A DNA stretch of 47,169 nucleotides. It comes from an uncultured Burkholderiales bacterium (lineage in GTDB: Bacteria; Pseudomonadota; Gammaproteobacteria; Burkholderiales; Burkholderiaceae_C). Below the pieces are notes generated by a model. The model ran no database searches. It was not told the DNA's origin and saw only the letters and a program-made list of their open reading frames with translations. How positions within the stretch are numbered: the stretch's first letter is position 1; each line of letters opens with the position of its first letter. Positions 11,256-46,729 of this stretch are shown piece after piece. Location: positions 1-47,169 of the forward strand of contig CALMYH010000003.1 of assembly GCA_937873395.1 (NCBI GenBank), given 5' to 3'. A program made the position numbers and the translations under genes.

Positions 11256-11260
11256 TCCTT

Positions 11261-31443: not shown

Positions 31444-32193
31444 TCAGATCACCTTGGCTTCGTTCTTGAGCTTGTCGACCAGGGTGGCGACATCGGGCAC
31501 CTTCACACCCGCGCCACGCTTGGCCGGCTCGGCCACTTTCAGGGTTTTCAGTCGCGGGGCCACGTCCACACCGAGGTCTTCGGGCTTGACAGTCTCCAGC
31601 GGCTTCTTCTTGGCCTTCATGATGTTGGGCAGCGTCACGTAGCGCGGCTCGTTCAGGCGCAGGTCGGTGGTGACCACCGCCGGCAGGCTCACTTCCAGCG
31701 TCTCCAGGCCACCGTCGACTTCGCGCGTGACCTTGGCTTTGTCCCCCGCCACTTCGACCTTGGAAGCGAAGGTGGCCTGCGGCAGATCAGCCAGGGCCGC
31801 GAGCATCTGGCCAGTCTGGTTGGCATCGTCGTCAATGGCCTGCTTGCCCAGGATCACCAGGCCGGGCTGTTCCTTGTCCACCAGCGCCTTGAGCAGCTTG
31901 GCCACGGCCAGGGGCTGCAGCTCGACATCGGTCTCGACCAGGATGGCACGGTCGGCGCCGATGGCCATGGCCGTACGCAGGGTTTCCTGGCACTGGGCCA
32001 CGCCGCAGGAGACGGCGATCACCTCGGTCGCAGCGCCCTTCTCTTTGAGGCGCACCGCCTCTTCGACGGCGATCTCGTCGAACGGGTTCATGCTCATCTT
32101 GACGTTGGCAATGTCCACGCCCGTGCCGTCGCTCTTGACGCGCACCTTGACGTTGTAGTCGACCACACGTTTGACGGGGACGATGACTTTCAT
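31444..32193 (-). CDS. etfB: Electron transfer flavoprotein, beta subunit
   Basis: 249 residues starting [20 protein letters not shown], with a strong CAGGAG ribosome site. The AMP-binding region and partner-docking loop are in [20 protein letters not shown] and [21 protein letters not shown]; the signature [25 protein letters not shown] is complete in three parts. It is the first gene of etfBA. The 190-bp gap to the TetR gene should carry the promoter; no clear operator is visible there. Confidence 0.95.
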
Positions 32194-32383: not shown

Positions 32384-33079
32384 TCAAGAGATAGTGGGAC
32401 AGGCAGTCTGCGGACGTATGCCATCAGCCAGGAAGCGGATGAATACCTCTGCCACCTGATCGCCAGTGAGTGTGCCGTCAGCGTGGTACCACTGGGAAAT
32501 AGAACTGATCGCCCCCATGAACCAAAACACCGCGAGCCTTGCGTCACAAGGCGCAATGGAACCGTCCCGAACGCCCTCTTCTATGATGTTGCGAAGCTGG
32601 AGGTCAAACTTTCTCCGGCGTGCGGTAATCTTTTTACGATCCGCTGGCGTCATAGCGGAAAAGTCGTGCAGGATCGCGGGAGCTCCCATCTGATCTGTCA
32701 GGTGCGAGATGTAATTCCGCATGAACGCGGTGATCCGTCCGTACCCAGTGGACTCTGATGCGATCGCGTCTTTCAACACCTGATCACCAATTTTCATCGC
32801 CAGCTCATGGCACTCGTAAATGAGTTCCTGCTTGCTCTTGAAATAGTAGTAGAGGGCAGGCTTGGTAACGTTGAGTGCGTTTGCAATCTCGTCGAGCGAG
32901 ACGTTTTGTGACCCATGGCGCCCAAAGGCTTTAGACGCTTCAGCAATCACTGCCTGCCGCTTGAGCTCGTACTGCTCATCCGCACCACTGACGGCGTTGT
33001 TCCACCTCGCCCCTTTGGTGGCGCGCTTGGTCGCTGAACGCACCCGTGGCTTGGGCTCCGCTTCGATGGATTGGCTCAT
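32384..33079 (-). CDS. TetR-family transcriptional regulator
   Basis: 231 residues. A basic N-terminal extension of about 35 residues precedes the helix-turn-helix (QAVIAEASKAFGRHGSQNVSLDEIANALNVTKPALYYYFKSKQELIYE, seen in sequence 43-90). The C-terminal ligand domain includes GAPAILHDFSAMTPADRKKI and a late FWFMGAISSISQWYHADG segment, as in TetR proteins of acyl-CoA catabolism. Probably it is the local regulator of the adjoining acyl-CoA genes; candidate operators lie at 43.45 and 44.59 kb, not beside its own promoter. GC content drops from this gene rightward. Confidence 0.88.
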   Translation of the reverse strand: MSQSIEAEPKPRVRSATKRATKGARWNNAVSGADEQYELKRQAVIAEASKAFGRHGSQNVSLDEIANALNVTKPALYYYFKSKQELIYECHELAMKIGDQVLKDAIASESTGYGRITAFMRNYISHLTDQMGAPAILHDFSAMTPADRKKITARRRKFDLQLRNIIEEGVRDGSIAPCDARLAVFWFMGAISSISQWYHADGTLTGDQVAEVFIRFLADGIRPQTACPTIS

Positions 33080-33145
33080 GAGGTTAGAGGTCGCGCTTTG
33101 CTAAGGGGAGACAGTTGTTAGTCGAACATGATATCCAATGACCTC

Positions 33146-33171
33146 GGGCAGCCGCCTTCGGCGGCTTGCCC
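33146..33171 (-). terminator. Hairpin after the acyl-CoA dehydrogenase gene
   Basis: GGGCA-GCCGCC (33146-33156) pairs with GGCGGC-TTGCCC (33160-33171) around TTC, with one bulged T. It lies 7 bp after the acyl-CoA dehydrogenase stop on the minus strand. No T tract follows, so it may act as an RNA stabiliser rather than a full terminator. Confidence 0.5.
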
Positions 33172-33177
33172 AGACAC

Positions 33178-34329
33178 TCACTCAGCCAAAATCTGGCGCG
33201 CAATAATCAGCTTCTGAATGTGGCTGGTACCTTCGTAAATCTTGGTAACGCGAACATCTCGGTAATAGCGCTCCACCGGGAAGTCCGAAACGTAGCCGTA
33301 GCCACCATGGACTTGAATCGCTGCAGAGCAGACCTTCTCAGCCATCTCACTGGCAAACAGCTTGGCGATCGAAGCCTCTTTGTCTGAGGGAAGCCCCGCA
33401 TCTCGCCGGCGCGCGGCGTAGATCATGTACTGGCGAGCCACCTCAACCTGCATCGCCATGTCGGCCAGATCAAAGCTGACGGCTTGGAGTGCCGAGATCG
33501 GCTTACCGTAGGCTTCCCGATCTTTGGCGTAACGAATGGCAGCCTCGAGCGCAGCGCGCGCGACACCGATCGCCAGGGCGGCAATCGCGATGCGCCCGTC
33601 TGACAAGAGCGACAGGGCCTTTGCATATCCTCGCCCTTCTTCTCCCACCAGATTGCCGACTGGAACGCGCAGATTGTCCAGCTGAATCTGGGCTGTATGC
33701 GCGGTGTGCTGTCCGAGCTTGTTCTCGATACGGAGCACCTGATAGCCCGGATCCTTGGGATCAACAATGAACAGGCTGAATCGATTCCGAGACCCAGGCT
33801 CCCCCGTGGCCGCCACGACAAAGGCGAAACCCGCTTCGCTTCCATTCGAAATCCATTGCTTGCTACCGTTGATCACGTAGTATTCACCATCGCGCTTGGC
33901 GGAGGTTCGGATGGAGGCAGTGTCAGAACCAGCATGAGGTTCCGACAGAAGAAATGCACCGATGTTCTTAGCCGAAGCCAACCCGGGCAGGTGCTGAGCC
34001 TTCTGCTCCTCTGTGCCGAAATTGCATAAGACATGCGCTGATGAGTTGTGCACGTGCATCATGGTGGCAAAGCCGCCATCGGCGACAGCGAACTCCTCAA
34101 TGGCCAAGCAATACTCCACGAAAGAAAGTCCCGCACCTCCATGTGTTTGAGGGGCCAGCATGCCCATGAACCCCAATTCGGCCACGGACTGAATTTCCGC
34201 ATGAGGCCACTTGCCGCTTTGGTCGCGTTGCGCCGCTGTGACGGCGACGACCTCCTCCGCTACGCGGCGGGCCGACTCCCGAATCATGACCTCTTGTTCG
34301 CTGAGGAAAGCGTTGGAAACACTGCTCAT
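33178..34329 (-). CDS. Acyl-CoA dehydrogenase
   Basis: 383-residue flavoprotein of the short/branched-chain acyl-CoA dehydrogenase type. It introduces the 2,3 double bond into an acyl-CoA and reduces ETF. Visible are FLLSEPHAGSDTASIRTSAK (FAD and substrate contacts), GSKQWISNGSEAGFAFVVA, the QIQLDNLRVP segment, and the catalytic-base region IYEGTSHIQ (E366). QVHGGYGYVSDFPVERYYRD is the signature. It is the last gene of a long minus-strand run beginning upstream at livG, 43 bp after livF. etfBA lies close downstream. Confidence 0.92.
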   Translation of the reverse strand: MSSVSNAFLSEQEVMIRESARRVAEEVVAVTAAQRDQSGKWPHAEIQSVAELGFMGMLAPQTHGGAGLSFVEYCLAIEEFAVADGGFATMMHVHNSSAHVLCNFGTEEQKAQHLPGLASAKNIGAFLLSEPHAGSDTASIRTSAKRDGEYYVINGSKQWISNGSEAGFAFVVAATGEPGSRNRFSLFIVDPKDPGYQVLRIENKLGQHTAHTAQIQLDNLRVPVGNLVGEEGRGYAKALSLLSDGRIAIAALAIGVARAALEAAIRYAKDREAYGKPISALQAVSFDLADMAMQVEVARQYMIYAARRRDAGLPSDKEASIAKLFASEMAEKVCSAAIQVHGGYGYVSDFPVERYYRDVRVTKIYEGTSHIQKLIIARQILAE

Positions 34330-34372
34330 CTGATGTCCTTGGGATTAACTTTTTTGTGTCAAAAAACGCAGC

Positions 34373-35161
34373 TCAACCGAGCCAGCGCTTGCGGCGCCGG
34401 TAGTGCTTCATGTCCCGGAAGCTCTTGCGCTCTCCTTCCACTGTCAAGCCGAGGTAGAACTCGCGAACGTCCTCATTGCTCTTGAGTTGGCTAGAAGGCC
34501 CCTCCAGCACGATGCGACCGCTCTCCATCACATAGCCGTAATCTGCGAGTTCAAGCGCGACGCGGGTGTTCTGCTCGACGATCAGCAAAGTCAGTCCGCT
34601 GGCTTTCAAGTCGGAAAGAAGGCCGTACACCTCCTCCACCATAAGGGGAGCCAATCCGAGCGATGGCTCATCGATCATCACCAACTTGGGTTGGGACATC
34701 AATGCGCGACCAATCACCAGCATCTGCTGTTCGCCTCCCGACAAATAACCTGCGGTTCGGTCGCGCAGGGCGGCCAAGCGCTTGATGCGGGAATAGACCT
34801 CGTCGAGCCTTTCCTTGGCCTCTCGCCCGCTTCCCAAGTGCCCACCGACCACCAGGTTCTGTTCGACCGTCATGTGACGCAGGACCTTGCGCCCCTCCAT
34901 CACGTGCACGAGACCCTGTCTCACCACATCCACCGGGTTCGCCCCGGTGATGTTGGTCCCGTCGAGCGTGATCGATCCTGCGGTGACCCGACCATCTTCG
35001 GTACGAATGAGGTTTGAAATGGCTTTGAGCGTCGTGCTCTTACCCGCGCCGTTGGCACCGAGCAGGGTAACGCACTGGCCCTTTGGTACACACGCTGTTA
35101 TGCCCTTTACAGCCAAAATCACTTCGCTGTAAAGAACCTCAACGTTATTTAGTTCAAGCAC
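34373..35161 (-). CDS. livF: Branched-chain-type ABC transporter ATP-binding protein LivF
   Basis: 262 residues from GTG 35161, preceded by GGAG at good spacing; an in-frame TTG at 35173 would add four residues. Walker A LLGANGAGKSTTLKAI, signature YLSGGEQQMLVIGRAL, Walker B VMIDEPSLGLAP and LTLLIVEQNTRVALE are present. The tail FRDMKHYRRRKRWLG is a basic extension I associate with LivF paralogues in aromatic or acyl-CoA gene clusters rather than true leucine transporters. It pairs with LivG (40454-41251) on the same strand. Confidence 0.9.
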   Translation of the reverse strand: MLELNNVEVLYSEVILAVKGITACVPKGQCVTLLGANGAGKSTTLKAISNLIRTEDGRVTAGSITLDGTNITGANPVDVVRQGLVHVMEGRKVLRHMTVEQNLVVGGHLGSGREAKERLDEVYSRIKRLAALRDRTAGYLSGGEQQMLVIGRALMSQPKLVMIDEPSLGLAPLMVEEVYGLLSDLKASGLTLLIVEQNTRVALELADYGYVMESGRIVLEGPSSQLKSNEDVREFYLGLTVEGERKSFRDMKHYRRRKRWLG

Positions 35162-35220
35162 AGGCAACTCCAATATTCGTCACTCCAGGCCCGTCGCGGC
35201 GGGCCTGGATATGCAGTCAA

Positions 35221-36468
35221 TTACCACTTGTTCACGTTCGGAACGGGAGCGCTTTGTTCGACCAGCTTGTACATCCCTTTTTCAATCGTTCCGATGTTCA
35301 CCGCCAAACCAGAAGTCGGGAACGGAGCATCGTTGCTGAACTTGATGTTGGGCAGAACACCAAATGTCAGCTCGCTTGGGAAAGCGTTGGTCTGCAAAGC
35401 AGTGCGAACATCCGCGCCCGTCACGCCGGCAGGACCCTTAATCTTGACCACCTGTTCCACCGCGCGGACCGTGAGTAGGGAAGTGGCCAACCCCATCATG
35501 CAGGGCGATGTGAAGTTGGCTTGCGTCTTGTACTGGGTGCGCAGCTTCTCGAAAAAGGCTCGCGCAGCTGTAGGATCGTCCGTCGGGATGGCCATGCCAT
35601 AAACCTCGTAACTTCCCTCCATCTGGTTGAGGTCGCCCAAGGCCTTGCCCGACGAGAGCAACCCGTTGTGTGCACTGACCACAATAGGTAGGTTGCCCTT
35701 ACCAAGGCTTTGCAAGGCACGACGGGTAGCCACCACCGATGCCGTATTGTTGAAGACTTGAATCACCGTCGCCCCTTTGCGAAGCAGTCGATGCACTTGC
35801 TGCGTAAGGTCCGTCGGCTGTGCCTCGGTGTAGATCGTCTCCACCACTTCCAGGATCTGGGGGTTGTCCTTGGCAAATCGCTCCACACCCTTGTGAATGT
35901 CCACATACGCGGGAGAAACTTCCGAAGAAATCACCCCGACCTTCAGCGGTCCACCCCCCATCTTCTTCTGATACCAAGCGTAAAAGCCGGCCGCTTCATG
36001 CGGGTAAGTCGCCCGTGCATTGAACACCCAGCTGCCATCCTTCCAAGCAAAGCCATAGCCAGCCGTGCCGAGCAGCAGGGGTACCTTGTCGTTGGGCAAT
36101 CTCTGCTGCAGCGCATTGCTGTCTGGCCCGCCGAGGCCCCAGACGGCAATCGGGTTGAGCTCCGCCTTGATGCCTGGCCAGAGGGAAGCGACTTGGGCCA
36201 CGTCGTAGCGTGCGTCATGCTCTTTGACTTTTAGGGTAACGCCGAGCGATTTGCCCACCTCTTCATTCCACCAGTCAAGCACCCCGCGGCGGCAGCCCGT
36301 GATGTCCTTCATCACGTCAGCGAAGGGCCCGGTGAAGTCAGCGATCCCAGCAATGTTGTATGTCGTCTGAGCGTAGACGGTGCTTCCACTGCCCAGTACG
36401 GCCAAGAGAGCAGCCGAGCCCAAAGCATGGCGGACTCTGACCGAAACCCATATCTTCTGTTTAATCAT
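35221..36468 (-). CDS. ABC transporter substrate-binding protein, branched-chain (LivJ) type
   Basis: 415-residue periplasmic protein. The start ATG 36468 has a strong AAGGAG. The signal peptide is MIKQKIWVSVRVRHALGSAA through STVYAQ. The mature protein begins TTYNIAGIADFTGPFADVM, the usual receptor-family opening. VWGLGGPDSNALQQRLP and KVGVISSEVSPAYVDIHKGV belong to the two-lobe type I fold. The ligand is unknown; the neighbouring CoA ligase and beta-oxidation genes suggest an organic acid instead of an amino acid. Confidence 0.9.
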   Translation of the reverse strand: MIKQKIWVSVRVRHALGSAALLAVLGSGSTVYAQTTYNIAGIADFTGPFADVMKDITGCRRGVLDWWNEEVGKSLGVTLKVKEHDARYDVAQVASLWPGIKAELNPIAVWGLGGPDSNALQQRLPNDKVPLLLGTAGYGFAWKDGSWVFNARATYPHEAAGFYAWYQKKMGGGPLKVGVISSEVSPAYVDIHKGVERFAKDNPQILEVVETIYTEAQPTDLTQQVHRLLRKGATVIQVFNNTASVVATRRALQSLGKGNLPIVVSAHNGLLSSGKALGDLNQMEGSYEVYGMAIPTDDPTAARAFFEKLRTQYKTQANFTSPCMMGLATSLLTVRAVEQVVKIKGPAGVTGADVRTALQTNAFPSELTFGVLPNIKFSNDAPFPTSGLAVNIGTIEKGMYKLVEQSAPVPNVNKW

Positions 36469-36553
36469 TTGCTTGTCTCCTTGGTGATTACGCTGTTTAA
36501 CCAAAATCAACCACCCACCAGCGTGAAAATGGGGATCGGGATAATGTTTATGT

Positions 36554-37606
36554 TCAATAGGGATAGGGCCACATTCGATAGGACTGCTTCGCAATATTCC
36601 AACGATGCATCAGGCCGCGAGGCTCAAAAATCAGAAAGCCAGCGATGATGCCACCGAGAAAAATATTCATAGCAGCAAACACCAAGTCTCCGCCTAGAAA
36701 TGGAATGCGCTCGATCAGTGCAGGCCCCATGCTCGTGATGGACTCCTGAGCCATACGAATAACGAGAACACCAATCAATGCGCCAGTAATCGAGCCCATG
36801 CCACCCACGATGATCATGGCAATAAACCAGATTGAATGAATCAGCGTGAACTGGTCAATCGCCACAAAGCGAATGTAGTATGCCCACAGCCCTCCACCAA
36901 TACCGGCATAAAAAGCACCAACCAAAAATGCCAGGGCTTTCGTCCTCACCACGTCGATGCCCATCATCCCTGAAGCCACATCATCATCACGAACGGCGGC
37001 GAAGATTCGTCCGTGTCGGCTACGCGCAATGCCGTATCCTCCAGCGATCATGATCATTGCGACCACGAGACACAGGTAATACATGCTTATATCCGTCTCA
37101 AACCTGAATCCAAACAGCTCAGCAGGCTCCAGGGTGATGCCGTTTGAGCCACCCAGCCACTTTTGTGGAAGATTGAGCACAAAGAAGTGAAACAGGATCT
37201 GCGCAGCAATCGTGGTAAGCGCGAGGTAGAACCCCTTTATCCGGACGGCAGCAAGACCGAAAATGAGGCCAAAAAGCGCTGCGAACACCCCACCCGCGGG
37301 CAGGGCCAGCCAGAATGGAAGGTGCAGTTTGCTGGCAAGCACAGCCGTCGAATAAGCACCGACCCCCATGAAGGCGGCCTGGCCTATATTGACCTGGCCA
37401 GCCAAACCAGTATTGATTTGCAGACCAAGAACCACCACTGCAGTGATCAGCATCGACGTCATCACTGCCACCGATCGAACCTCGGCGACCATCGGCAGGG
37501 CAAACAGAGCCACAACAAATATCAACAGCGCAAATGCTTGATTTCGCGTGCGGATAAGCGATTGATCCTGACGATAGGAGGTTGCGAAAATACCTGCGGG
37601 ATCCAT
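36554..37606 (-). CDS. livM: Branched-chain-type ABC transporter permease LivM
   Basis: 350 residues with about nine to ten hydrophobic helices, for example FALLIFVVALFALPMVAEV and SMLITAVVVLGLQINTGLAG. The family segment GQVNIGQAAFMGVGAYSTAVL is clear. FAAVRDDDVASGMMGIDVVRTKALAFLVGAFYAGIGGGLWA (in part) is the docking loop. The ATG at 37606 lies 2 bp after the livH stop with GAAAGGG upstream; a TTG two codons earlier is possible. Its GC content is near 53 percent by eye in the sampled part. Confidence 0.92.
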   Translation of the reverse strand: MDPAGIFATSYRQDQSLIRTRNQAFALLIFVVALFALPMVAEVRSVAVMTSMLITAVVVLGLQINTGLAGQVNIGQAAFMGVGAYSTAVLASKLHLPFWLALPAGGVFAALFGLIFGLAAVRIKGFYLALTTIAAQILFHFFVLNLPQKWLGGSNGITLEPAELFGFRFETDISMYYLCLVVAMIMIAGGYGIARSRHGRIFAAVRDDDVASGMMGIDVVRTKALAFLVGAFYAGIGGGLWAYYIRFVAIDQFTLIHSIWFIAMIIVGGMGSITGALIGVLVIRMAQESITSMGPALIERIPFLGGDLVFAAMNIFLGGIIAGFLIFEPRGLMHRWNIAKQSYRMWPYPY

Positions 37607-37608
37607 GA

Positions 37609-38493
37609 TCAAACCCTTTCAATGGTTTTCCAACCGAACATACCGGTTGGACGAATCAAGAGCATCAGCAACATGATGATGAATGGAAATACAGAGCCAA
37701 TTGCACCGCCAACCAGAGGATCAAGATAGGCCGATGCTAAACCTTGAATCACGCCCACCAGCACACCGGCGAGCAACAATCCTGCGAGCGATTCCAAGCC
37801 AGCGAGCAATGCCACAGGAAGCGCTGCCAATCCGATGTCGGAGCTCAGCATGTTGATAGAGCGGCCACTCAGGTGAACCATGGCACCCAGGGTGGAAAGC
37901 ACAGAGCCGAGAATCCAGGCAAAGGCAATGGATCGCTGCACGGAGATACCCATTGACATCGCCACCTGATGGTCTTCGGCCACGGCGGTCATCGTCAAAC
38001 CCGTACGCGTTTTGTTGAAAAACCACGAAAGTCCAAAACCAATGGCAATCGTGAGCAACCCACCATAGAACATCGAGCGAGAGATCAGGATGTCACCAAA
38101 GATCAGCGGATCAATTGGAAAAACCATCGGAAAGGCGCGGACTTGTGGACCAAACAGGACCAAGACCACACCCCGAATTAGGATCAGAAGCCCGATGGTC
38201 ACCATCACCATGGAAAAAACGGATTCACCGACAAGTCGCGCAAAGAAAATCCGCTCGATCATCAAGCCGAAGATGGCTGCGCTCACGAATGCCACTGGCA
38301 GGCCGATCCACAACGGCATTCCCATTTGAATCACTGTCCACCAGACCATGTACCCGCCGAAGACGACCAACTCCCCCTGCGCGAAGTTGAACACCTTTGA
38401 TGCCCGATAGATCACCACAAAACCCATGGCAATCAGTGCATACAAGAGGCCCGTCAACGCGCCATTGATGAGGTAATTCAGGAAATCAATCAT
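37609..38493 (-). CDS. livH: Branched-chain-type ABC transporter permease LivH
   Basis: 294 residues, about eight hydrophobic helices. Opening MIDFLNYLINGALTGLLYAL and the KVFNFAQGELVVFGGYM segment are typical LivH. The docking loop AVAEDHQVAMSMGISVQRSIAFAW (shown in 2 parts: AVAEDHQVAMSMG, ISVQRSIAFAW) is present. The start overlaps the CoA ligase stop by four bases, so the ligase and transporter genes are translationally coupled. Confidence 0.92.
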   Translation of the reverse strand: MIDFLNYLINGALTGLLYALIAMGFVVIYRASKVFNFAQGELVVFGGYMVWWTVIQMGMPLWIGLPVAFVSAAIFGLMIERIFFARLVGESVFSMVMVTIGLLILIRGVVLVLFGPQVRAFPMVFPIDPLIFGDILISRSMFYGGLLTIAIGFGLSWFFNKTRTGLTMTAVAEDHQVAMSMGISVQRSIAFAWILGSVLSTLGAMVHLSGRSINMLSSDIGLAALPVALLAGLESLAGLLLAGVLVGVIQGLASAYLDPLVGGAIGSVFPFIIMLLMLLIRPTGMFGWKTIERV

Positions 38494-40457
38494 TGCCTTC
38501 TCCCATTTGAAATACCGGCCTTGGTCGTCTGGTCGGCAGCCGCTACGTCGCGAATGAGTACCTGCGCGGTGAACTGGCTGCGACGTCCATCCTGATAGGT
38601 CACCGGTATGTCCACAGTCACTTCAGACGCCCCGTTGTAAAGACCTTGAATCAGCGCCGAATACCTATCTTCCAGAAACTCTCGACGCAGTTTTCTCGAT
38701 CGGGTCAACTCGCCCTCATCCGGGTCAAGCTCCTTCGGAAAGTTGGCGAAACGCCGGACTCGCGCGTGGGCGGGCAGGAACTGGTTTACCCGGGAGATTT
38801 CCCGGCTAAGGAGGTCGGCCACCTCTGGGCGCTGCGAGAGATCCGTGAAGGTCGAGAAGCCAATGCGCTTTTCTTCTGCCCAGCGAGACAGCACACCCAT
38901 GTCGATGTTGATTAGTGCTGCAACAAAGTCGCGCCTTTCATCTCCGACGGTCATGATGTCTTTGATGAACGGGCTGAAGCGAAGGCGGGTTTCAACAAAC
39001 TGCGGCGGGAACGTCTGGCCATCGGCAAGACGCTTCAGATCGGACACACGCTCCAAAAACACAAGTTCGCCTCGGTCCGTCTTGGTAACCGCATCTCCGG
39101 TTTGGTACCACCCGTCTTTGACCTTGGCCTCGACAGAGCCTTCGCGTCGGTAGTAGCCCAGAAACGAACTCCCTCCCCTGACGCACAACTCCCCATCTGC
39201 TGTCAGCATCCACTCCAGAGGAGTTCCTGCCTCGGGGTGCGTCTGCATCCAGTGACCAACGGTTTCTAGGTCAAAACGGTCTCCTTGGTGGCTCGTCAAC
39301 AGCCCGACCTCTGTCGAGCCATAGATGTTTCTCAAGGGAACGCCCATTGCATGGAACATGCGGAACACATCTGGTGCCATGGTGGCTCCTCCGCAGATGG
39401 CCACCTGCAATCGTGTCAGGCCAAGTTGGTCTCTCAACGGCCTAAGGACCAGCGCATTGGCGAGGGGCAGCAAGGCCCGACTCCACCACGACACGTGCTT
39501 GCCGTCCATACGCGCGACGTGCACAGCATGTCCAACCTTCAAACCCCACTCGTAAATTGCTCGCCGCACAGCGCCCGCGTCGAGCATGTGTGCCTGCACG
39601 GAAGACGCCATGCTTTCCCATTGGCGCGGGGCAAACGTCATGGCCTCGACCGCCAGCTCTCGAATGTTTTCAAGAACCTGCTCAGGGCCCTCAGGAAAAT
39701 TGACCACCATGGGCAGGCCGATTCCCAGGGCCAGACCCATGAATTGCTCCGTTGCCCATGCTGGGGCGATGTAGCTCAGGTACTGGGTGCCTGGCCTGGC
39801 CTTCGTGGCATTGATCAGACGTTGGGCGTTGTCAACCAAGCTACGATGTGAAAGGATCACCCCCTTGGGTTTGCCCGTGGTGCCTGATGTGTACGAAAGC
39901 ACCGCGATGTCGTCAGGACGGCCCTGATCAACGAGACGGTCGTACATCAGCTCATCCTTTTCGCCAAGGGACCGCCCCTCGCTCTGCAACTGATGAAACT
40001 TGCGCAAGATGGGGTCTCGGTACGACCACATGCCCGTGTCGTCCCAGTACACGATGTGCCGCAGGTTGGGAGTGGCCGTCTTCACCGCCAACCCTTTGTC
40101 CACCTGTTCCTGATCCTGAGCAAAGAGACAGACGGCCTCACTGTCATCCAGCAGGTACTGCACTTCGTCTGCCGTGAGGTCCGGATACAGTGAGATTACC
40201 TTGCACCCGACTGCTTGTGCCGCGTATTCGGCCCAGTAATGCTGAGGCTCGTTCTCACCAATGATTGCGACCGTCTCTCCGCGTTGAATACCCAGTTGGT
40301 GAAGACCCAAGGCCAAGTCCATGACATTGCGCTGGACCTGTGAGAAGTCGTACTCGCGCCAGATACCACGCGTCTTGTGCCGCTGCGAAAGTCGCTGCGG
40401 TGAGCGTCTGGCGTGGTCACGCAGCAGTTGCGGCAGTGTTGCCATGCGAATGTTCAT
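38490..40457 (-). CDS. AMP-forming acyl-CoA ligase (long-chain fatty-acid type)
   Basis: 655 residues. The P-loop YTSGTTGKPKG (about 189-199) is canonical, followed by NIYGSTEVGLL, the adenine/hinge motif YQTGDAVTKTDRGELVFLER (in part), and a C-terminal SRKLRREF region bearing the catalytic lysine. It resembles the FadD15/ACSBG-like long-chain ligases. It overlaps both livG and livH by four bases, an unusual embedding inside a transporter operon. This suggests the imported acid is immediately trapped as its CoA ester. The first step of the predicted pathway probably belongs to this enzyme. Confidence 0.9.
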   Translation of the reverse strand: MNIRMATLPQLLRDHARRSPQRLSQRHKTRGIWREYDFSQVQRNVMDLALGLHQLGIQRGETVAIIGENEPQHYWAEYAAQAVGCKVISLYPDLTADEVQYLLDDSEAVCLFAQDQEQVDKGLAVKTATPNLRHIVYWDDTGMWSYRDPILRKFHQLQSEGRSLGEKDELMYDRLVDQGRPDDIAVLSYTSGTTGKPKGVILSHRSLVDNAQRLINATKARPGTQYLSYIAPAWATEQFMGLALGIGLPMVVNFPEGPEQVLENIRELAVEAMTFAPRQWESMASSVQAHMLDAGAVRRAIYEWGLKVGHAVHVARMDGKHVSWWSRALLPLANALVLRPLRDQLGLTRLQVAICGGATMAPDVFRMFHAMGVPLRNIYGSTEVGLLTSHQGDRFDLETVGHWMQTHPEAGTPLEWMLTADGELCVRGGSSFLGYYRREGSVEAKVKDGWYQTGDAVTKTDRGELVFLERVSDLKRLADGQTFPPQFVETRLRFSPFIKDIMTVGDERRDFVAALINIDMGVLSRWAEEKRIGFSTFTDLSQRPEVADLLSREISRVNQFLPAHARVRRFANFPKELDPDEGELTRSRKLRREFLEDRYSALIQGLYNGASEVTVDIPVTYQDGRRSQFTAQVLIRDVAAADQTTKAGISNGRRQ

Positions 40458-41251
40458 GCCACCCCCTCACCCAGATATGCTTTCAATACGGCAGGATCGG
40501 CCTGGATTTCCTTGGGTGTTCCCTCGGCAATCTTTCGGCCAAAGTCCAGCACAGCCACGCGATCCGCAAGGTCCATGACAACCCCCATATCGTGCTCGAC
40601 CAGCACGATCGGGATGCGTTTGGCTTCTCTCACATCCAGAATGAACCTAGCCAGATCTTCCTTCTCCTCGGTATTCATTCCGGCCATTGGCTCGTCCATG
40701 AGAAGGATCTTGGGATCTTGAGCGAGAGCGCGCCCGAGGTCGACGCGCTTGCGAAGTCCATAACCCAGGCTGCCCACTGGGGAGTGCCGGATCGACTCGA
40801 TTTCCAGGAACTCGATGATTTCCTCCACCGCTTCCCTGTGAGCCACCTCTTCGCGTACAGCGGGTCCGAAATGGCAAAAGGACTGGATCAGGTTGGTGCG
40901 CATATGCAAGTGGCGCCCCACCATCAGGTTCTCAATGACCGTCATGCCCGAGAAGATGTGGGTACCTTGAAACGTGCGGGCCAATCCGCGGGCCGCCACT
41001 TCGTGTGTGCCCATGCCTCTGATCGAGTGCTCGCCAAGACGGATTTCGCCTGCCTTGGGACGATAGAAGCCACTTAGGCAATTCATCAGCGACGACTTCC
41101 CTGCTCCGTTAGGACCGATCACGGCCAACAACTCGTCGTCGCGTACATCAATGGAGACATCGTTCAGGGCCACGATTCCCCCAAACTTCAAAAGCAGATG
41201 GCTTGCGGAAAGCACGATCTGAGCGTGCTTACCCTTTGGCAGATCACTCAT
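40454..41251 (-). CDS. livG: Branched-chain-type ABC transporter ATP-binding protein LivG
   Basis: 265 residues with a strong ribosome site (GGAGGAAAGAATG). Walker A VIGPNGAGKSSLMNCLSGF, LARTFQGTHIFSGMTVIEN, signature region LGYGLRKRVDLGRALAQ (a degenerate LSGGQ, usual for LivG), and Walker B ILLMDEPMAGMN are visible. It is first in the run livG - ligase - livH - livM - binding protein - livF - acyl-CoA dehydrogenase. The 98-bp gap upstream separates it from the SDR gene and may hold a promoter; no palindrome is seen there. Confidence 0.92.
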   Translation of the reverse strand: MSDLPKGKHAQIVLSASHLLLKFGGIVALNDVSIDVRDDELLAVIGPNGAGKSSLMNCLSGFYRPKAGEIRLGEHSIRGMGTHEVAARGLARTFQGTHIFSGMTVIENLMVGRHLHMRTNLIQSFCHFGPAVREEVAHREAVEEIIEFLEIESIRHSPVGSLGYGLRKRVDLGRALAQDPKILLMDEPMAGMNTEEKEDLARFILDVREAKRIPIVLVEHDMGVVMDLADRVAVLDFGRKIAEGTPKEIQADPAVLKAYLGEGVA

Positions 41252-41349
41252 TCTTTCCTCCGCGATCCATCAGTCGTCTTACTTGCATGGAAACCTCTTT
41301 TCATTCAGTCCCAGAATAGGTTCAGCTCTTTTTTGTGAGATGCTGACCG

Positions 41350-42108
41350 TCAGCGGGTCCCCGCGTCCAGGCTGATGGTGGTGGCGTTGAAGTAGGCGTT
41401 TTCGACGATGTGTTGAACCAGTGAGGCAAACTCCTGCGGTCGCCCCATCCGGTGGGGGAAGAGGATCGAGTTATCGATCAGCCCCTGAGAGACCTTGGGC
41501 GGCATGCCGGCGGACATGCCCGTCTCGAACAGGCCGGGCGCAATAGCGACGACACGAATCCCGTGCTGTGCCAGGTCACGGGATACTGGGAGCGTCATTC
41601 CCATCACCCCAGCCTTCGTTGCGCTGTAGGCTGCCTGACCCATCTGTCCCTGCCAAGCGGCTCCAGAAGAGGTGTTCACGATCACACCTCGCTCGCCGTC
41701 CTCGCTGGCGGTATTTCGCGACATCGCAAGGCTCGCGTGGCGGATGACGTTAAACGTGCCCGTGAGGTTGACGGCAATCACCTGGTTCCAGAGAGAAAGG
41801 GGAAACAGTTCGCCTTTGCTCAAGGTTTTGCACGGCCCAAGAATGCCAGCACAGTTCACGGCCACCTGCAAAGAGCCAAAGGCCTGCACCGCAAAGTCGA
41901 CGGCAGCTTTCACCTCAGCATCGTTGGACACGTCGACCCGTTGAATGCGAACGCTTGACCCTAGGGGCAGTACGTTGTTGACCAAGCGCTCTTCATCAAC
42001 GTCCACTGCCATCACCTTGGCGCCCGCCGCTACCAGCGCCTGGCAGGTGGCCAGGCCCAGGCCCGATCCTGCTCCAGTGACGAGTGCCACTACGTTTTGA
42101 ATGTCCAT
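41350..42108 (-). CDS. Short-chain dehydrogenase, HSD10-like 3-hydroxyacyl-CoA dehydrogenase
   Basis: 252 residues from ATG 42108 (CAAGGAGACAAC upstream). NAD site TGAGSGLGLA (11-20), NCAGILG, catalytic S147, Y161 and K165 (VNTSSGAAWQGQMGQAAYSATK in parts), and the ending TISLDAGTR. Several stretches closely follow human HSD17B10: MGTFNVIRHASLAM-like, GQAAYSATKAGVMGMTLP, RDLAQHGIRVVAIAPGLF. HSD10 acts on 2-methyl-3-hydroxyacyl-CoA in isoleucine breakdown, which fits an alpha-methyl substrate in this cluster. It lies 32 bp after the thiolase gene. Confidence 0.88.
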   Translation of the reverse strand: MDIQNVVALVTGAGSGLGLATCQALVAAGAKVMAVDVDEERLVNNVLPLGSSVRIQRVDVSNDAEVKAAVDFAVQAFGSLQVAVNCAGILGPCKTLSKGELFPLSLWNQVIAVNLTGTFNVIRHASLAMSRNTASEDGERGVIVNTSSGAAWQGQMGQAAYSATKAGVMGMTLPVSRDLAQHGIRVVAIAPGLFETGMSAGMPPKVSQGLIDNSILFPHRMGRPQEFASLVQHIVENAYFNATTISLDAGTR

Positions 42109-42140
42109 GTTGTCTCCTTGTTCGTACTTGGTTCTGTGAT

Positions 42141-43379
42141 TCAGCGGCCAAGAATCGTTATGCATGCCACGGCTTCTTCAATCCCTTCCAGGCCCCCGCC
42201 GTTCTCGGCGAGCGCAAGCCGGGCACTTTCCACCTGGCGCTTCCCTGCCTCCCCTCGTAGTTGAGTGACCAGCTCATGGATCTGTGCAAGCCCGGTCGCA
42301 CCTACAGGGTGGCCCTTGGACTCCAGACCACCTGATGGGTTGATAGGGATCCGCCCTCCGATGCTTGTCTCACCGCGCTCCGCGATGACACCGCCCATGC
42401 CGAACTCGCAGAAGCCAAGGTTCTCGGACTGGATGATTTCGCCCATGGCGGTAGCGTCATGGACTTCGGCCACCGATATGTCTGCGGCTCCCACACCGGC
42501 CAATTCGTAGGCCTTGGTGGCCGCCAACGCTGTGCAGTGGGAGCGGTAGTCGGACTCATCGCGATCTGATCCGCTTTGCACCACCGAAGCGAGTACACGG
42601 ATCGCTCGGCTTGCGTCCAAGTTGAGGCGTTTAATGGCCTTGCCGGTGCACAAAATTGCGGCCGCGGCACCATCTGAGATTGGTGAACACATTGGCAAAG
42701 TCAGCGGATAGGTTATGGGTGGCGCCGCTAGGATCTCGTCGATGGTGTATGCCACACGGTACTGGGAGAGCGGGTTATGAACCGAATGGGTGTGGTTCTT
42801 GGCCGCCACAGCCGCGAGCTGCCGCTGGGTCGTACCGAATGTCCGCATGTGCGAACGCGCGAATGCGGCATATACGTCCATGAAGACGCTGTACGGCTTG
42901 GGCGAGGACGATCCTTCGGGTACGGACACCTCCCTGCCCAGCTTCATCAGGGAATCTCGAATCTCTTGTGCACGGGAGATATCCCAAGCACTGTCAAACA
43001 CGGAGAACATCCGCGCCTTGTCGGTAGAGAACATCTTCTCGGTTCCCACCGCGAGAGCGACGTCGCCCGCTCCGGACTTCAAGTGACTGCACGCCAGCGC
43101 AAACGCAGATGATCCACTCGCGCAGGCGTTCTCAATGTTCACCACCGGAACCCGGCCAATGCCCATGGCGCGCAAGGCAATCTGCCCGCGAATCATGTGC
43201 TGCCCTTCCATGTGTCCTTGAGAAGTGTTGCCAAAGAAGGCCGCTTCCAACTGCTCCTTCTGCATGGCGGCATCTGCAAGGGCTGCCTCCACTGCCTGCC
43301 TAGTAAGGGCTTTCATGTCAAGGTCGAGGTGTCGGCCAAACGGCGTCATGCCAACCCCAATCACGTAGATGTCATTCAT
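42141..43379 (-). CDS. SCP2-type thiolase / acetyl-CoA acetyltransferase
   Basis: 412 residues of the thiolase superfamily, SCP-x/lipid-transfer branch. The nucleophilic Cys is C86 in NIENACASGSSAFALA. VEVHDATAMGEIIQSENLGF and the histidine motif GGLESKGHPVGATGLAQIHEL follow. In mammals the SCPx thiolase cleaves 2-methyl-3-oxoacyl-CoA esters (pristanate, bile-acid intermediates) to propionyl-CoA, which suits the adjacent racemase. ATG 43379 has AAGGAAA upstream. A perfect 18-bp palindrome lies about 65 bp upstream. Confidence 0.9.
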   Translation of the reverse strand: MNDIYVIGVGMTPFGRHLDLDMKALTRQAVEAALADAAMQKEQLEAAFFGNTSQGHMEGQHMIRGQIALRAMGIGRVPVVNIENACASGSSAFALACSHLKSGAGDVALAVGTEKMFSTDKARMFSVFDSAWDISRAQEIRDSLMKLGREVSVPEGSSSPKPYSVFMDVYAAFARSHMRTFGTTQRQLAAVAAKNHTHSVHNPLSQYRVAYTIDEILAAPPITYPLTLPMCSPISDGAAAAILCTGKAIKRLNLDASRAIRVLASVVQSGSDRDESDYRSHCTALAATKAYELAGVGAADISVAEVHDATAMGEIIQSENLGFCEFGMGGVIAERGETSIGGRIPINPSGGLESKGHPVGATGLAQIHELVTQLRGEAGKRQVESARLALAENGGGLEGIEEAVACITILGR

Positions 43380-43443
43380 GCTCAGTTTCCTTATGGCTCT
43401 TGAATACTGGCGGAATAGCTAAACTTTACCCGCCGTGCAATGG

Positions 43444-43461
43444 TTTTACTTTAAAGTAAAA
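43444..43461. promoter_or_regulatory. Perfect 18-bp palindrome, operator candidate upstream of the thiolase gene
   Basis: TTTTACTTTAAAGTAAAA is fully self-complementary. It lies between the racemase stop and the thiolase start, about 65 bp before the latter. A near-identical site with one changed base lies at 44585-44600. The pair suggests sites for one regulator, possibly the TetR protein at 32.4 kb. Confidence 0.75.
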
Positions 43462-43488
43462 AACAAAAAAAGAGAGAGGGGTAAACCC

Positions 43489-44568
43489 TCATTGGGGCGA
43501 TCTCAAAAGGTCCGGATCGACCAGAGGCAGGAAGCGCAAGCCCCGCGCCGTCTCTACATCACCCTCGTCGGTCACGCGATACAGACCTCGACTGGCGTTA
43601 TGGGGATGCTTCGCTGCCTCTCCCAAGGTGAGGACTGGTGCGAAGCAGGCATCAGTGCCTTCCAGCTCTCCAGTCCAATAGCTGCTTGACCTCGACGCAA
43701 ATGCCTCAGCCATTCGGGCTTTCAGTGCGGGCCAAGCGGCCCTGTTCATCTGCTGAGAGGGATCCACGTCCGACAGCCCCATCTTTTCCAGAAGAAGCGC
43801 ATAGAACTGCGGCTCAATAGCGCCAACCGTGATGTACCGACCGTCTGCACACCGATAGCGGTCATAGAACGGTGAGTCGTGAAAGACGCTGGCCACGGTC
43901 CCCTCTAGAGCACCACCCTTGCGGAGAAGCTGAACCAAGGGCGCCAGGAGGGCCAGCACATCCACGATCGCTCCATCGACTACACAACCCTTTCCTTCGC
44001 CACTTCTCGCGGCGAACATCCCGGCGACGATTCCCATCGTCAGACCCAAGGCCCCCGCCGCGTCTCCCAAGACCGTGGGTGGCAGAATTGGAGGATGACC
44101 CGGCATTTCGGTCAGTGACATCAGTCCGGTTAGGGCCACGTAGTTCATGTCGTGGCCTGCGGCGTGGGCCAGCGGACCATCCTGCCCCCATCCCGTCATG
44201 CGGCCGTAGACGAGGCGGGGGTTCACCTTGGCGCAGTCTTGAGGCCCCAGACCCAGCCGCTCCATCACCCCTGGACGATTCCCTTCAATCAAGGCATCGC
44301 TTTGGGCAATCAAGTCGATTGCAGCCACTTTGTCGTGTGGCGTCTTCAAGTTCAGAGTGACACGATGTTTGCCGCGGTTAATCAAGCTATCGGTAGGCGG
44401 GGTCATTTCTGCTGGCAGAGCCCCTCGACCTGGGCGTGCGACCAGGGTCACGCTCGCGCCGAGCTGTACCAGATGAAAGCCCGCCAATGGGCCGGGTCCG
44501 ATTCCTTCGAACTCCACTACCTTGACTCCTGCCAACGGTAGCTGACTGCTTTGACTAGATGACTTCAT
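43489..44568 (-). CDS. Alpha-methylacyl-CoA racemase (CaiB/BaiF family III)
   Basis: 359 residues. It interconverts 2R- and 2S-2-methylacyl-CoA so that both can enter beta-oxidation. The residues matching the Mycobacterium tuberculosis MCR catalytic set, as I remember that sequence, are all present: H139 in AAGHDMNYVALTG, D169 in TVLGDAAGALGL, and E252 in VGAIEPQFYALLL. The stretch GAIEPQFY and the CADGRYITVG part mark racemases rather than CoA-transferases. An AGAGGAG ribosome site precedes ATG 44568. The upstream palindrome at 44585 is 17 bp from the start. Confidence 0.9.
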   Translation of the reverse strand: MKSSSQSSQLPLAGVKVVEFEGIGPGPLAGFHLVQLGASVTLVARPGRGALPAEMTPPTDSLINRGKHRVTLNLKTPHDKVAAIDLIAQSDALIEGNRPGVMERLGLGPQDCAKVNPRLVYGRMTGWGQDGPLAHAAGHDMNYVALTGLMSLTEMPGHPPILPPTVLGDAAGALGLTMGIVAGMFAARSGEGKGCVVDGAIVDVLALLAPLVQLLRKGGALEGTVASVFHDSPFYDRYRCADGRYITVGAIEPQFYALLLEKMGLSDVDPSQQMNRAAWPALKARMAEAFASRSSSYWTGELEGTDACFAPVLTLGEAAKHPHNASRGLYRVTDEGDVETARGLRFLPLVDPDLLRSPQ

Positions 44569-44584
44569 GGGGACTCCTCTTTTT

Positions 44585-44600
44585 TTTACTCTAAAGTAAA
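44585..44600. promoter_or_regulatory. Second copy of the palindromic operator, between racemase and crotonase genes
   Basis: TTTACTCTAAAGTAAA matches the 43444-43461 palindrome at 15 of 16 bases (one C for T). It is 17 bp before the racemase start and about 98 bp before the crotonase start, so it could control both divergent transcripts. Confidence 0.75.
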
Positions 44601-44697
44601 TTAGCTTTATTTTGGGTAAGGGAAATCACCAAGTTACTTACTCGATAGTCAAATGAAAGAATGTGAGGTCCCTAAGCACGCCGAGAATGGAGAAGAC

Positions 44698-45480
44698 ATG
44701 TCAGAGTCAGTGGTGGTTACCGAAGTCCGGAATCGATCTCTTTGGATCCGCCTGAATCGCCCAGATGCAATGAACTCGCTCACCCCAGAAGTGCTCCAAG
44801 CCATCGACAAGGGGCTGGACCAGGCACTGGAGAGCAACGACGTCATGACCGTTGTTCTTACTGGTACCGGCCGCGCCTTCTGCGCTGGGGCGGACCTTAA
44901 GTACGTGCGAGGTCAACTGGGCGAGAACGGCACGAGCGCCTTCCTCGCGGGTGTCTTGCGCACGATGAACCGCCTGGACCGATTCCCCAAGCCGGTCATT
45001 GCCTCGCTAAACGGCATTACCCTCGCGGGAGGGCTGGAGTTGGTGCTGTGCTGCGATCTGATTATCGCTGCCAAGAGCGCAAAGATCGGCGATGCACACG
45101 CCAACTACGGCCTGCTTCCTGGAGGTGGCGGCTCGGTGCGTCTCCCCCGTGTGATTGGCCCGACCCGCGCCAAGTACCTTCTCTACACCGGTGAGTTCGT
45201 TTCAGCCGAGGAGATGCGAGAAGCCGGGTTGGTGAATCAGGTCGTGGACGACTCGCAGCTCGACGCAGCGACCCAGAAGGTGGCCGACACCATTGCCACC
45301 AAGAGCCCTTTGGGCCTTCAGCGCATGAAGGCTCTGGTTGACGACGGGCTCGATCAATCAGAGGACACGGCACTTCGCTTGGAACTGCTGGCGTCAGAAG
45401 TTCATGCTTTCAGCGCCGACCTTCAAGAGGGGCTGGATGCCTTCCAGGGAAAACGCGCGCCGCGTTTCACCGGCAAGTGA
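44698..45480 (+). CDS. Crotonase-fold protein (enoyl-CoA hydratase/isomerase family) lacking usual catalytic glutamates
   Basis: 260 residues from ATG 44698 with GGAGAAGAC upstream (an in-frame ATG at 44653 is possible). Oxyanion-hole segments GRAFCAGADLK (58-68) and GITLAGGLELVLCCDLIIAA are intact, so CoA-ester binding is expected. At the positions of the two hydratase glutamates (E144 and E164 of rat mitochondrial enzyme) I align H134 in GDAHANYGLLPGGGG and Y160 in RAKYLLYTGE. A standard hydration mechanism is therefore doubtful; isomerase, hydrolase, or other crotonase chemistry is possible. It is followed by the PaaK-like gene. Confidence 0.85.
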   Translation: MSESVVVTEVRNRSLWIRLNRPDAMNSLTPEVLQAIDKGLDQALESNDVMTVVLTGTGRAFCAGADLKYVRGQLGENGTSAFLAGVLRTMNRLDRFPKPVIASLNGITLAGGLELVLCCDLIIAAKSAKIGDAHANYGLLPGGGGSVRLPRVIGPTRAKYLLYTGEFVSAEEMREAGLVNQVVDDSQLDAATQKVADTIATKSPLGLQRMKALVDDGLDQSEDTALRLELLASEVHAFSADLQEGLDAFQGKRAPRFTGK

Positions 45481-45496
45481 ACCAAGGTTCCGAACC

Positions 45497-46729
45497 ATGA
45501 CCACGCCCCCATGCTCCAACCGATTCGCAGCACTTCAGCGCATTCAGACCCAGGCTTACCGGAAGGCCCCAGCAATACGAGACATCTATGAGCGGGCGAA
45601 TATGGCGCCGGCCGACTTATGCGGCGCCAGTGATCTTGCCCGCCTGCCCGTCACGACCAAAGACCAACTACTCGCCCTCCAACGAGCACATCCCCCTTTT
45701 GGCGGGTTCCTGGCCGCGGACACTCACGACATTCGACGCATCTTTGTGTCTCCAGGGCCGATCTATGAACCAGAGCTTTCAAGCGATGTCACCGGGCGTG
45801 GATTCGCGCAAGTTTTTAACCAAGCAGGCATCGGCCCCGGCGATCGCGTGCTCAATACCTGGTCTTACCACCTTGTGCCCGCAGGTCTTTTGCTTGACCA
45901 AGGAATCGCATCTACCGGGGCCACGATCATCCCGTGTGGTCCGGGCGGCGCTGAACAGCAAGCCCAACTGATTCTGGAGTTGGACATCACGTGTATTTGC
46001 GCGTCCACCAGCTTCTTCATTACCTTGATCGAGACCTTGGAACGCATGGGGTACCAGTTGCCTCGTGACTGGCGCGTCAAAAATGCCATGCTCGGTGGAG
46101 AGATGGGCAACTGGATGCATAAGCGACGCTATCTTGAGCAGCGCTATGCCATCAACACGTTCTCCGCCTATGCGACCGGAGACTTTGGACTCATCGGTTA
46201 CGAACAAGATGGACTTGAGGGCTACCGCATTCACCCTGAACGCCTGGTCCAGGTGTGCGACCCGGTATCGGGCGAGCCCTTGCCAGTCGGCAGCACAGGT
46301 GAGATCGTGGTCACGACACTGGAAAGCGGGTGGCCATTGGTTCGATTCGGCACAGGCGACGTCGCTCAGGCGTTGAGCCAGACAGAAGACGGCCTCGTTG
46401 ATCGCATTGGTCTTCTGCAAGGCCGCGTCGGCCAGGGTGTAAAAGTGCGCGAGGTTTTTGTCTATCCGCGCAACATCGAAGAATTGCTGAGTCGAGTGCC
46501 GGAGATCAATCGTGCGCAGCTTGTCGTAGAGACCCTGGGCCACAGAGAGACCATGACATTGCGTGCAGAACTCAAGCCAAAAGGCACACCAGCCAACGTG
46601 GAAGCTCACCTAGCTGATGCATTCAAACAAGTAACTCGGCTCAAGCTAGACAACATCGAATGGCTCGAGGTGGGCCAACTCGCTGAAGGAGATCCAACGC
46701 TTGTCGATCGGAAGCACGCACAAGCTTGA
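45497..46729 (+). CDS. PaaK-like acyl-adenylate-forming protein with degenerate P-loop
   Basis: 410 residues, 16 bp after the crotonase gene. The fold markers of phenylacetate-CoA ligase are present: YRKAPAIRDIYERANM, LPVTTKDQLL, TFSAYATGDFGLIGYE, VRFGTGDVAQAL, and GVKVREVFVYPRNIEELL with the C-terminal subdomain. At the place of the usual Ser/Thr/Gly-rich P-loop (SSGTTGKP) it has VSPGPIYEPE (84-92). ATP handling may differ, or the protein may bind or transfer a preformed acyl group. Together with the 38.5 kb ligase this makes two adenylate-type proteins in one cluster. Confidence 0.85.
   Translation: MTTPPCSNRFAALQRIQTQAYRKAPAIRDIYERANMAPADLCGASDLARLPVTTKDQLLALQRAHPPFGGFLAADTHDIRRIFVSPGPIYEPELSSDVTGRGFAQVFNQAGIGPGDRVLNTWSYHLVPAGLLLDQGIASTGATIIPCGPGGAEQQAQLILELDITCICASTSFFITLIETLERMGYQLPRDWRVKNAMLGGEMGNWMHKRRYLEQRYAINTFSAYATGDFGLIGYEQDGLEGYRIHPERLVQVCDPVSGEPLPVGSTGEIVVTTLESGWPLVRFGTGDVAQALSQTEDGLVDRIGLLQGRVGQGVKVREVFVYPRNIEELLSRVPEINRAQLVVETLGHRETMTLRAELKPKGTPANVEAHLADAFKQVTRLKLDNIEWLEVGQLAEGDPTLVDRKHAQA

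Follow-up and report, generated by a model that had tools for sequence, protein, structure and literature searches.

Gene content of the cluster

The window analysed here, 47,169 nucleotides long, is the whole of contig CALMYH010000003.1 (C3) of an uncultured Burkholderiales bacterium, whose genome assembly comprises 3.70 Mb in 183 contigs. Its right-hand part carries a gene cluster of ~14 kb (32384-46729, the right edge being the contig end), which encodes an importer, an acyl-CoA ligase, an alpha-methylacyl-CoA racemase, enzymes of beta-oxidation and a TetR-family regulator, and which probably serves the degradation of alpha-branched acids (Table 1). The minus-strand genes, in order of transcription from 44568 to 32384, encode the racemase, the thiolase, a short-chain dehydrogenase (SDR), LivG, the ligase, LivH, LivM, a binding protein, LivF, an acyl-CoA dehydrogenase and TetR. 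The crotonase-family gene and then the PaaK-like gene are read from the plus strand from 44698, divergent from the racemase gene. Five features go beyond an earlier note on this DNA, namely the TetR gene, the PaaK-like gene, two palindromes, a low G+C content and an upstream integrase.

The importer has the components of the LIV/HAAT class of ATP-binding cassette (ABC) importers, with two permeases, two ATPases and a type-1 binding protein. As the earlier note had described, a CoA ligase is embedded in it, and four-base overlaps join livM to livH (37609-37612), livH to the ligase gene (38490-38493) and the ligase gene to livG (40454-40457). The ligase P-loop, TSGTTG, is intact in 65 of 66 aligned rows, and the remaining row ends before the motif. 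For the binding protein, an AlphaFold2 (AF2) model with a predicted local distance difference test (pLDDT) score of 79.8 matched LIV, aromatic-acid, fatty-acid and amino-acid binding proteins (Foldseek/VIA); an earlier model, with a pLDDT of 66, was too weak.

By eye, another contig of the same genome (C33:1-20000, L174, positions 3338-11673) carries a further LIV-type importer in which a CoA ligase is embedded. This set adjoins an AtuA-family gene and dehydrogenase-like and carboxylase-like open reading frames (ORFs), and may belong to a terpenoid-acid cluster. The C33 set resembles the window cluster in combining a LIV-class importer with an embedded acyl-CoA ligase, but differs in its 635-codon ligase ORF and its gene order.

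Table 1. Features of the cluster, with window coordinates and the basis of each assignment.
Feature	Position	Strand	Basis
TetR-family regulator (TetR_C_24), probable cluster repressor	32384..33079	-	Pfam PF00440, PF17932
Acyl-CoA dehydrogenase, SCAD/short-branched-chain type	33178..34329	-	Pfam; solved relatives
LivF-like ABC ATPase	34373..35173	-	NCBIfam, under family cut-off
Periplasmic substrate-binding protein, type 1 (LIV class), start not fixed	35221..36474	-	PF13458; AF2 model; Foldseek
LivM-like permease	36554..37612	-	NCBIfam, under family cut-off
LivH-like permease	37609..38493	-	NCBIfam, under family cut-off
Acyl-CoA ligase (AMP-forming), embedded in importer operon	38490..40457	-	PF00501, 195 bits
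LivG-like ABC ATPase	40454..41251	-	NCBIfam, under family cut-off
HSD10-like short-chain 3-hydroxyacyl-CoA dehydrogenase	41350..42108 (start ATG 42108, open frame to 42165)	-	Best solved relatives
Thiolase, nearest SCP2 type 1, HDA variant	42141..43379	-	Pfam; solved relatives
Perfect 16-base palindrome 5' of thiolase operon, probable TetR operator	43445..43460	strandless	Pattern scans
Alpha-methylacyl-CoA racemase (AMACR/MCR group), H139/D169/E252	43489..44568	-	phmmer, triad, tree
Near-perfect palindrome in racemase/crotonase gap, probable TetR operator	44585..44600	strandless	Pattern scans
Crotonase-family protein, His for second catalytic Glu	44698..45480 (open frame from 44653)	+	PF00378
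PaaK-like ligase relative without canonical P-loop (VSPGP)	45497..46729	+	Comparison with 2y4o

The CaiB-family protein and the alpha-methylacyl-CoA racemases

Against solved structures, phmmer gave the CaiB-family protein 267-272 bits with alpha-methylacyl-CoA racemases (~272 bits for MCR, 1x74 and 8rmw), and 119.5 bits with its best CoA-transferase match, YfdE. The H139, D169 and E252 pointed out in the earlier note align to H126, D156 and E241 of MCR, which, with their residue roles, we take to be the catalytic set. This triad is kept in all 25 orthologues from loci of the same layout (the A-type loci described below). In E. coli YfdE, Frc and CaiB the Asp is kept, the His column is Tyr, and only CaiB has Glu at the third column. 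The window protein lacks this transferase-type active site, having His instead of Tyr plus Glu at the third column.

The phylogeny that had been proposed as a check on this protein groups it with MCR and not with the E. coli CoA-transferases. In a quick maximum-likelihood tree of 63 rows picked from a larger set (pieces under 200 residues excluded, no bootstrap), it falls within a 27-row group with MCR, with a Shimodaira-Hasegawa-like approximate likelihood-ratio (SH-aLRT) support of 100. This group is nested in a 49-row group (SH-aLRT 99), apart from the three E. coli CoA-transferases; the tree has several long branches and one join flagged by a tool warning. The triad was checked in 61 of the 63 rows, the own-genome CaiB members L001 and L003 being excluded: all 49 rows that bear H/D/E fall in the 49-row group, and the 12 others lack the triad. 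Another H/D/E-bearing CaiB protein of the same genome (contig C34, L005/L175) is highly divergent and sits on a long branch.

The Pfam domain of the window protein is named CoA_transf_3, and eight of 80 thiolase loci carry no CaiB protein, as could be the case if the protein were a CoA-transferase in a cluster that degrades an ordinary unbranched acid. The bit scores (272 versus 119), the His column, the triad and the tree speak against the transferase identity, and an ATP-dependent ligase is already present in the cluster; this explanation is very improbable. By sequence, the protein belongs with the alpha-methylacyl-CoA racemases.

MCR racemises 2-arylpropionyl-CoA, and the PDB molecule name of the MCR match includes this compound, which would suit the ibuprofen-type 2-arylpropionate that the earlier note had entertained as a substrate. 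However, in plain beta-oxidation of this CoA ester the methyl group would be the site of attack. The ibuprofen route, as given in the available part of PMC9195938, consists of a CoA ligase, a ring dioxygenase and a retro-aldol cleavage, whereas the cluster is without an oxygenase, and the main text of that source as available does not contain the word "racemase". With no positive support, degradation of a 2-arylpropionate is likewise very improbable.

Conserved catalytic departures in the beta-oxidation enzymes

The acyl-CoA dehydrogenase is confirmed by Pfam and by solved relatives, and the HSD10-like dehydrogenase by solved relatives. For the acyl-CoA dehydrogenase, solved relatives score up to 397 bits (human SBCAD, 2jif, 283 bits), and the catalytic-Glu motif YEGTS is present in 36/36 rows of at least 50% identity. 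The nearest solved relatives of the SDR are type-II 3-hydroxyacyl-CoA dehydrogenases, including human HSD10, and its Y-x3-K motif is found in 39/39 rows.

The other enzymes depart from their families at catalytic positions. The best solved relative of the thiolase is SCP2-thiolase type 1 (224 bits), in agreement with its earlier designation as SCP2-type, but its Pfam domains are of the thiolase type only, with no SCP2 domain, and the Cys of the HDCF loop of SCP2 thiolases is replaced by Ala (HDATA in 81/81 rows). The nucleophilic Cys is kept (ENACAS in 81/81 rows). Among the solved relatives aligned, 6hsj has HDCF and 6esq HDC, while BbsB and 7yvy, another acetyltransferase, have HDA. The crotonase was likewise correctly placed in its family (PF00378) and keeps the first catalytic Glu (GGxE; AGGLE in 73/73 rows), but its second catalytic Glu, present as PE in CaiD and 5zai, is His (GDAH, 73/73 rows). 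The PaaK-like protein has VSPGP where the P-loop of PaaK (2y4o) reads SSGTTGKP, and SPGP is found in 41/41 rows. The conservation of these departures makes decay unlikely, and the departures themselves suggest that hydration and thiolysis may differ from the animal route, with which the earlier note had equated the cluster.

The departures bear on a further possibility, that the substrate is alicyclic or ring-bound at its alpha carbon (for example, a substituted cyclohexanecarboxylate). In that case the CaiB protein would epimerise a ring carbon, and ring opening would fall to the unusual crotonase or thiolase. Consistent with this, the His-for-Glu crotonase is conserved, the second-best score of the acyl-CoA dehydrogenase is with cyclohexane-1-carbonyl-CoA dehydrogenase, and the thiolase shares its HDA motif with the benzoylsuccinyl-CoA thiolase BbsB, which cleaves an alpha-substituted 3-ketoacyl-CoA. 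However, the dehydrogenase score (292 bits) is ordinary for the superfamily and far under the cut-off of 650, HDA also occurs in 7yvy, and the cluster is without a ring-specific gene. We consider a ring-bound substrate quite unlikely.

Recurrence of the layout and shared palindromes

A thiolase-anchored scan of the species-genome collection gave 134 confirmed loci, of which 80 were kept. In the 25 A-type loci among them (L077-L099, L101 and L112), which at a DNA identity of 98.5% represent 17 distinct thiolase genes, a 69-100% identical racemase lies directly before the thiolase. The full 13-gene set is present in 21/25; L085 and L090 are truncated by contig ends, and, within the stretches examined, L089 is without TetR and L101 without the PaaK-like gene. 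TetR is found in 22/25, as L085 and L090 end before its position. The closest named relatives are mostly Comamonadaceae, and the gene order is also found in other genera. The co-occurrence of racemase, SCP2-type thiolase and liv genes that the earlier note had suggested looking for is found in these loci and in 8/399 family genomes.

The layout is accompanied by two palindromes. One, perfect and 16 bases long, precedes the thiolase ATG by 65 bases; the other, a copy with one mismatch, precedes the racemase ATG by 16 bases, in the intergenic region between the racemase and crotonase genes. These are the only two matches at up to three mismatches in the window (expected, 0.00) and, with the middle base free, the only two at up to one mismatch in the whole genome; a reversed control gave none. 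At up to three mismatches, 24/25 A-type loci have the racemase-gap site and 21/25 the thiolase-gap site; L112 is without the thiolase-gap site, and L078, L079, L082 and L101 each have one site at four mismatches. Of the other 55 thiolase loci, only L100, L106 and L108 match at up to three mismatches. The recurrence of the gene order in other genera, together with an expectation of 0.00 for the palindrome, argues for more than chance. The palindromes probably join the cluster into one regulon, and we infer from co-occurrence that TetR acts at them.

Both L089 and L100 are from Acidovorax sp. 210-6. L089 is the cluster itself (TetR not seen), and L100 is a second thiolase-SDR-dehydrogenase set that shares the palindrome, which is in line with a substrate, natural or recently recruited, of 2-ethylhexanoate. 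This acid, derived from the plasticizer alcohol 2-ethyl-1-hexanol, is chiral and alpha-ethyl, and its thiolysis would yield two butyryl-CoA. The case concerns one strain, however, and the available part of the report on strain 210-6 gives no expression link. In addition, the wider family is widespread in marine and soil settings, which suggests a natural substrate, and we regard 2-ethylhexanoate as unlikely. The L100 set is 75-81% identical, with the palindrome upstream, and no racemase or importer is seen within the stretch examined.

Beyond the A-type loci, a CaiB protein with the triad is present in most of the collection (72/80 thiolase loci overall). A second CaiB subfamily, 30-35% identical, keeps H, D and E and lies within ~2 kb of the thiolase in other lineages, among them Bordetella petrii, Cupriavidus, two Noviherbaspirillum, three Paraburkholderia, Vineibacter and a Bradyrhizobium metagenome-assembled genome. 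It is also near the thiolase in 33/36 Rhodobacteraceae-type loci (L115-L155 minus five Burkholderiaceae loci). In the sphingomonads L111 and L113, a racemase close to MCR (45-46% identical to that of the window) is located on the other side of the thiolase, at a distance of 3.4 kb. In 13 loci a triad-bearing CaiB protein is found 8-10 kb from the thiolase, besides or replacing a nearer one, and 18 further CaiB matches in the thiolase loci, five of them partial, are without the triad.

Several of these loci have features of their own. The proteins at 8-10 kb in the Rhodobacteraceae-type L115, L123, L130-L132, L134, L138, L139, L142, L143, L151 and L153 form a further triad-bearing group (GHD, A[LIV]EEKFW), and L141 has yet another kind at this position. 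In five loci from Paraburkholderia, Burkholderia and Caballeronia without a CaiB match (L127, L144, L148, L150 and L156), etf genes and distant acyl-CoA dehydrogenases accompany a thiolase of 68-70% identity; L156 additionally has an AMP ligase and a DUF5938 protein. In Tsuneonella flava, a homogentisate dioxygenase and a VanA-type Rieske oxygenase lie near the thiolase (L111:3185-4525 and 12139-13200).

The genes that flank the distant clusters do not converge on one substrate class. Some would fit an isoprenoid-derived 2-methyl acid of the citronellyl, pristanyl or prenyl side-chain type, comparable to the Mcr-dependent isoprenoid degradation of actinobacteria. Two plasmid-borne clusters have such neighbours, an AtuA-like gene and a biotin carboxylase in Nitratireductor, and carboxylase and HMG-CoA lyase genes in Paracoccus. 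One of the best fold matches of the modelled binding protein is a fatty-acid binding protein, and polyisoprene and related methyl-branched isoprenoids are no longer used once Mcr is disrupted (Arenskotter 2008, as cited in the available part of PMC8538451). However, both plasmid clusters hold the second CaiB subfamily, the AtuA-like, carboxylase and HMG-CoA lyase genes are absent from the window cluster, and the fold matches also include binders of aromatic compounds and of amino acids. An isoprenoid-derived acid is a possible but still doubtful substrate.

Probable horizontal acquisition of the cluster

The distribution of the cluster is patchy. A thiolase at least 81% identical is found in 8/399 family genomes, the own genome included, and all eight carry the cluster with the racemase beside the thiolase; 27/399 match the thiolase with an E-value of 1e-150 or lower, and no match is found in the four listed congeners. 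In a scan of 150 family genomes for AMACR, 75 had a match, and the cluster was present in 4 of 40 regions selected from the longer list of racemase matches.

The block looks foreign because its G+C content is 57.1% over 32384-46729, compared with 67.1% over 1-26000. Third-position G+C is 0.62-0.71 in the six cluster enzyme and regulator genes measured, and two ORFs from the first 9 kb of the window have values of 0.87 and 0.94. A tyrosine integrase (PF00589 plus an arm-binding domain) at 27138-28586 lies between the high-G+C DNA and the low-G+C block, at a position that is a possible island border; no tRNA was found in the window. The composition suggests that the block is probably an acquired island, with its left border at ~32.2-32.4 kb and the contig end as its right end. 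Electron-transfer flavoprotein (ETF) genes at 30477-32193 were considered as cluster members and rejected, as their third-position G+C (0.84-0.86) is unlike that of the cluster genes. In six relatives, no etf match was found beyond the TetR end in the 5 to 12 kb examined in each, and one stretch, L182, had no match whatever.

Two adjacent plus-strand ORFs beside the integrase (28651-30140) have no Pfam match at 1e-5 and, judged by eye, may be a nucleotidyltransferase-like toxin-antitoxin or defence-like pair. Farther left, putative kynurenine-pathway genes (formamidase, kynureninase and tryptophan dioxygenase) were recognised by eye at 6671-9480.

Proposed function

From the gene content, triad, tree, synteny, palindromes and composition observed here, we infer the reactions, the TetR-palindrome link and the class of substrate. 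The LIV-class importer would take up the acid and the embedded ligase would form its CoA thioester. The AMACR-family racemase would then interconvert the alpha-epimers, making both available to a stereoselective acyl-CoA dehydrogenase. Hydration by the crotonase-family protein, oxidation by the HSD10-like dehydrogenase and thiolysis would shorten the chain, releasing propionyl-CoA if the branch is a methyl group; a propionyl-CoA product is expected for a 2-methyl acid only. Host carboxylase and methylmalonyl-CoA mutase would consume this product. A carboxyltransferase subunit and methylmalonyl-CoA mutase are encoded within 5 kb of each other on one contig of the own genome, and the host is probably able to use propionyl-CoA. 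The methylcitrate route was considered and rejected, as PrpD had no match in this genome and PrpB was below the cut-off. The TetR-type repressor, freed by an intermediate, would work at the two palindromes, which would govern both the divergent promoters of the racemase and crotonase genes and the operon that runs from thiolase to dehydrogenase.

That a racemase-family protein is encoded together with a full set of uptake and beta-oxidation genes, conserved as a unit, argues for an alpha-branched acyl-CoA. We therefore consider it likely that the cluster degrades a chiral, alpha-branched (2-substituted) carboxylic acid or a few such acids, and it was probably acquired horizontally together with a single regulator. 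The import and degradation of a chiral 2-methyl acid proposed in the earlier note is thus supported as far as alpha-branching goes, but not in the acids that were named.

Several observations weigh against this interpretation. The crotonase, thiolase and PaaK-like protein all lack canonical catalytic residues. The His is not exclusive to racemases, as an own-genome CaiB member (L006) has H-D-T, and the third-column Glu is kept in E. coli CaiB. A CaiB match is wholly absent from eight of the 80 thiolase loci (L100, L110, which carries an importer, and six Burkholderiaceae loci without one), and in L138, L142 and L153 the triad-bearing CaiB protein lies only at ~8 kb from the thiolase; such loci indicate that the thiolase also works elsewhere without an adjacent racemase. 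The second CaiB subfamily scores about equally with 4ed9 (CaiB/BaiF family, 171 bits) and with MCR (170 bits), and its members can accordingly be called no more than putative racemases. L089 keeps both palindromes with no TetR in the stretch examined. Finally, no solved structure is related in sequence to the binding protein, whose fold matches point to no single ligand.

Tentatively, the cluster may represent a distinct mobile module for alpha-branched acyl-CoAs with non-textbook hydration and thiolysis, marked by the His crotonase, the HDA thiolase and the PaaK-like protein without a P-loop, in which the racemase slot is filled by two CaiB subfamilies. These would perhaps be AMACR proper in Comamonadaceae and the transferase-near subfamily in Cupriavidus, Paraburkholderia and Rhodobacteraceae.

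Derivatives of plasticizer alcohols, isoprenoid side chains and some drugs are among the chiral alpha-branched acids, the breakdown of which can come to a halt at the wrong enantiomer. If the proposed function is correct, a transferable cluster that brings its own importer, racemase and regulator would account for the one-step gain of this trait by bacteria of soil and water, and the palindromes would offer a direct route toward identifying the inducing substrate.

Comparison with known systems

Among the open-access literature matches listed, judged by title and start of abstract, none describes this cluster. Animals oxidize branched chains through AMACR, SCPx and HSD10, and the cluster resembles this route in its MCR-type triad racemase, HSD10-like SDR and nearest-SCP2-type thiolase. 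It differs in its bacterial uptake operon, its HDA rather than HDC thiolase without an SCP2 domain, and its single-Glu crotonase. BbsB shares the HDA motif with the window thiolase at a lower score (197 versus 224 bits), but no zinc-ribbon/OB partner is found among the cluster proteins scanned. The ipf pathway for ibuprofen in Rhizorhabdus, as far as the available part of PMC9195938 describes it, likewise has a CoA ligase, a thiolase-like protein and a propionyl-CoA product; unlike the cluster, it uses a ring dioxygenase and a retro-aldol step, and its main text, as available, contains neither "transporter" nor "racemase".

In the actinobacterial Mcr systems, as in the cluster, an AMACR-family racemase feeds beta-oxidation. 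Examples are Gordonia mcr and Mycobacterium pristane mcr, and the Mcr disruption study was reportedly made in Gordonia. According to the available part of PMC8538451, Mcr is needed for the use of methyl-branched isoprenoids. Racemase-dependent oxidation of branched acids is already known, and the cluster is probably a variant of it, which differs from the actinobacterial systems in its variant thiolase and crotonase and in bringing racemase, importer, ligase, four beta-oxidation steps and regulator together in one patchy, probably mobile Gram-negative cluster.

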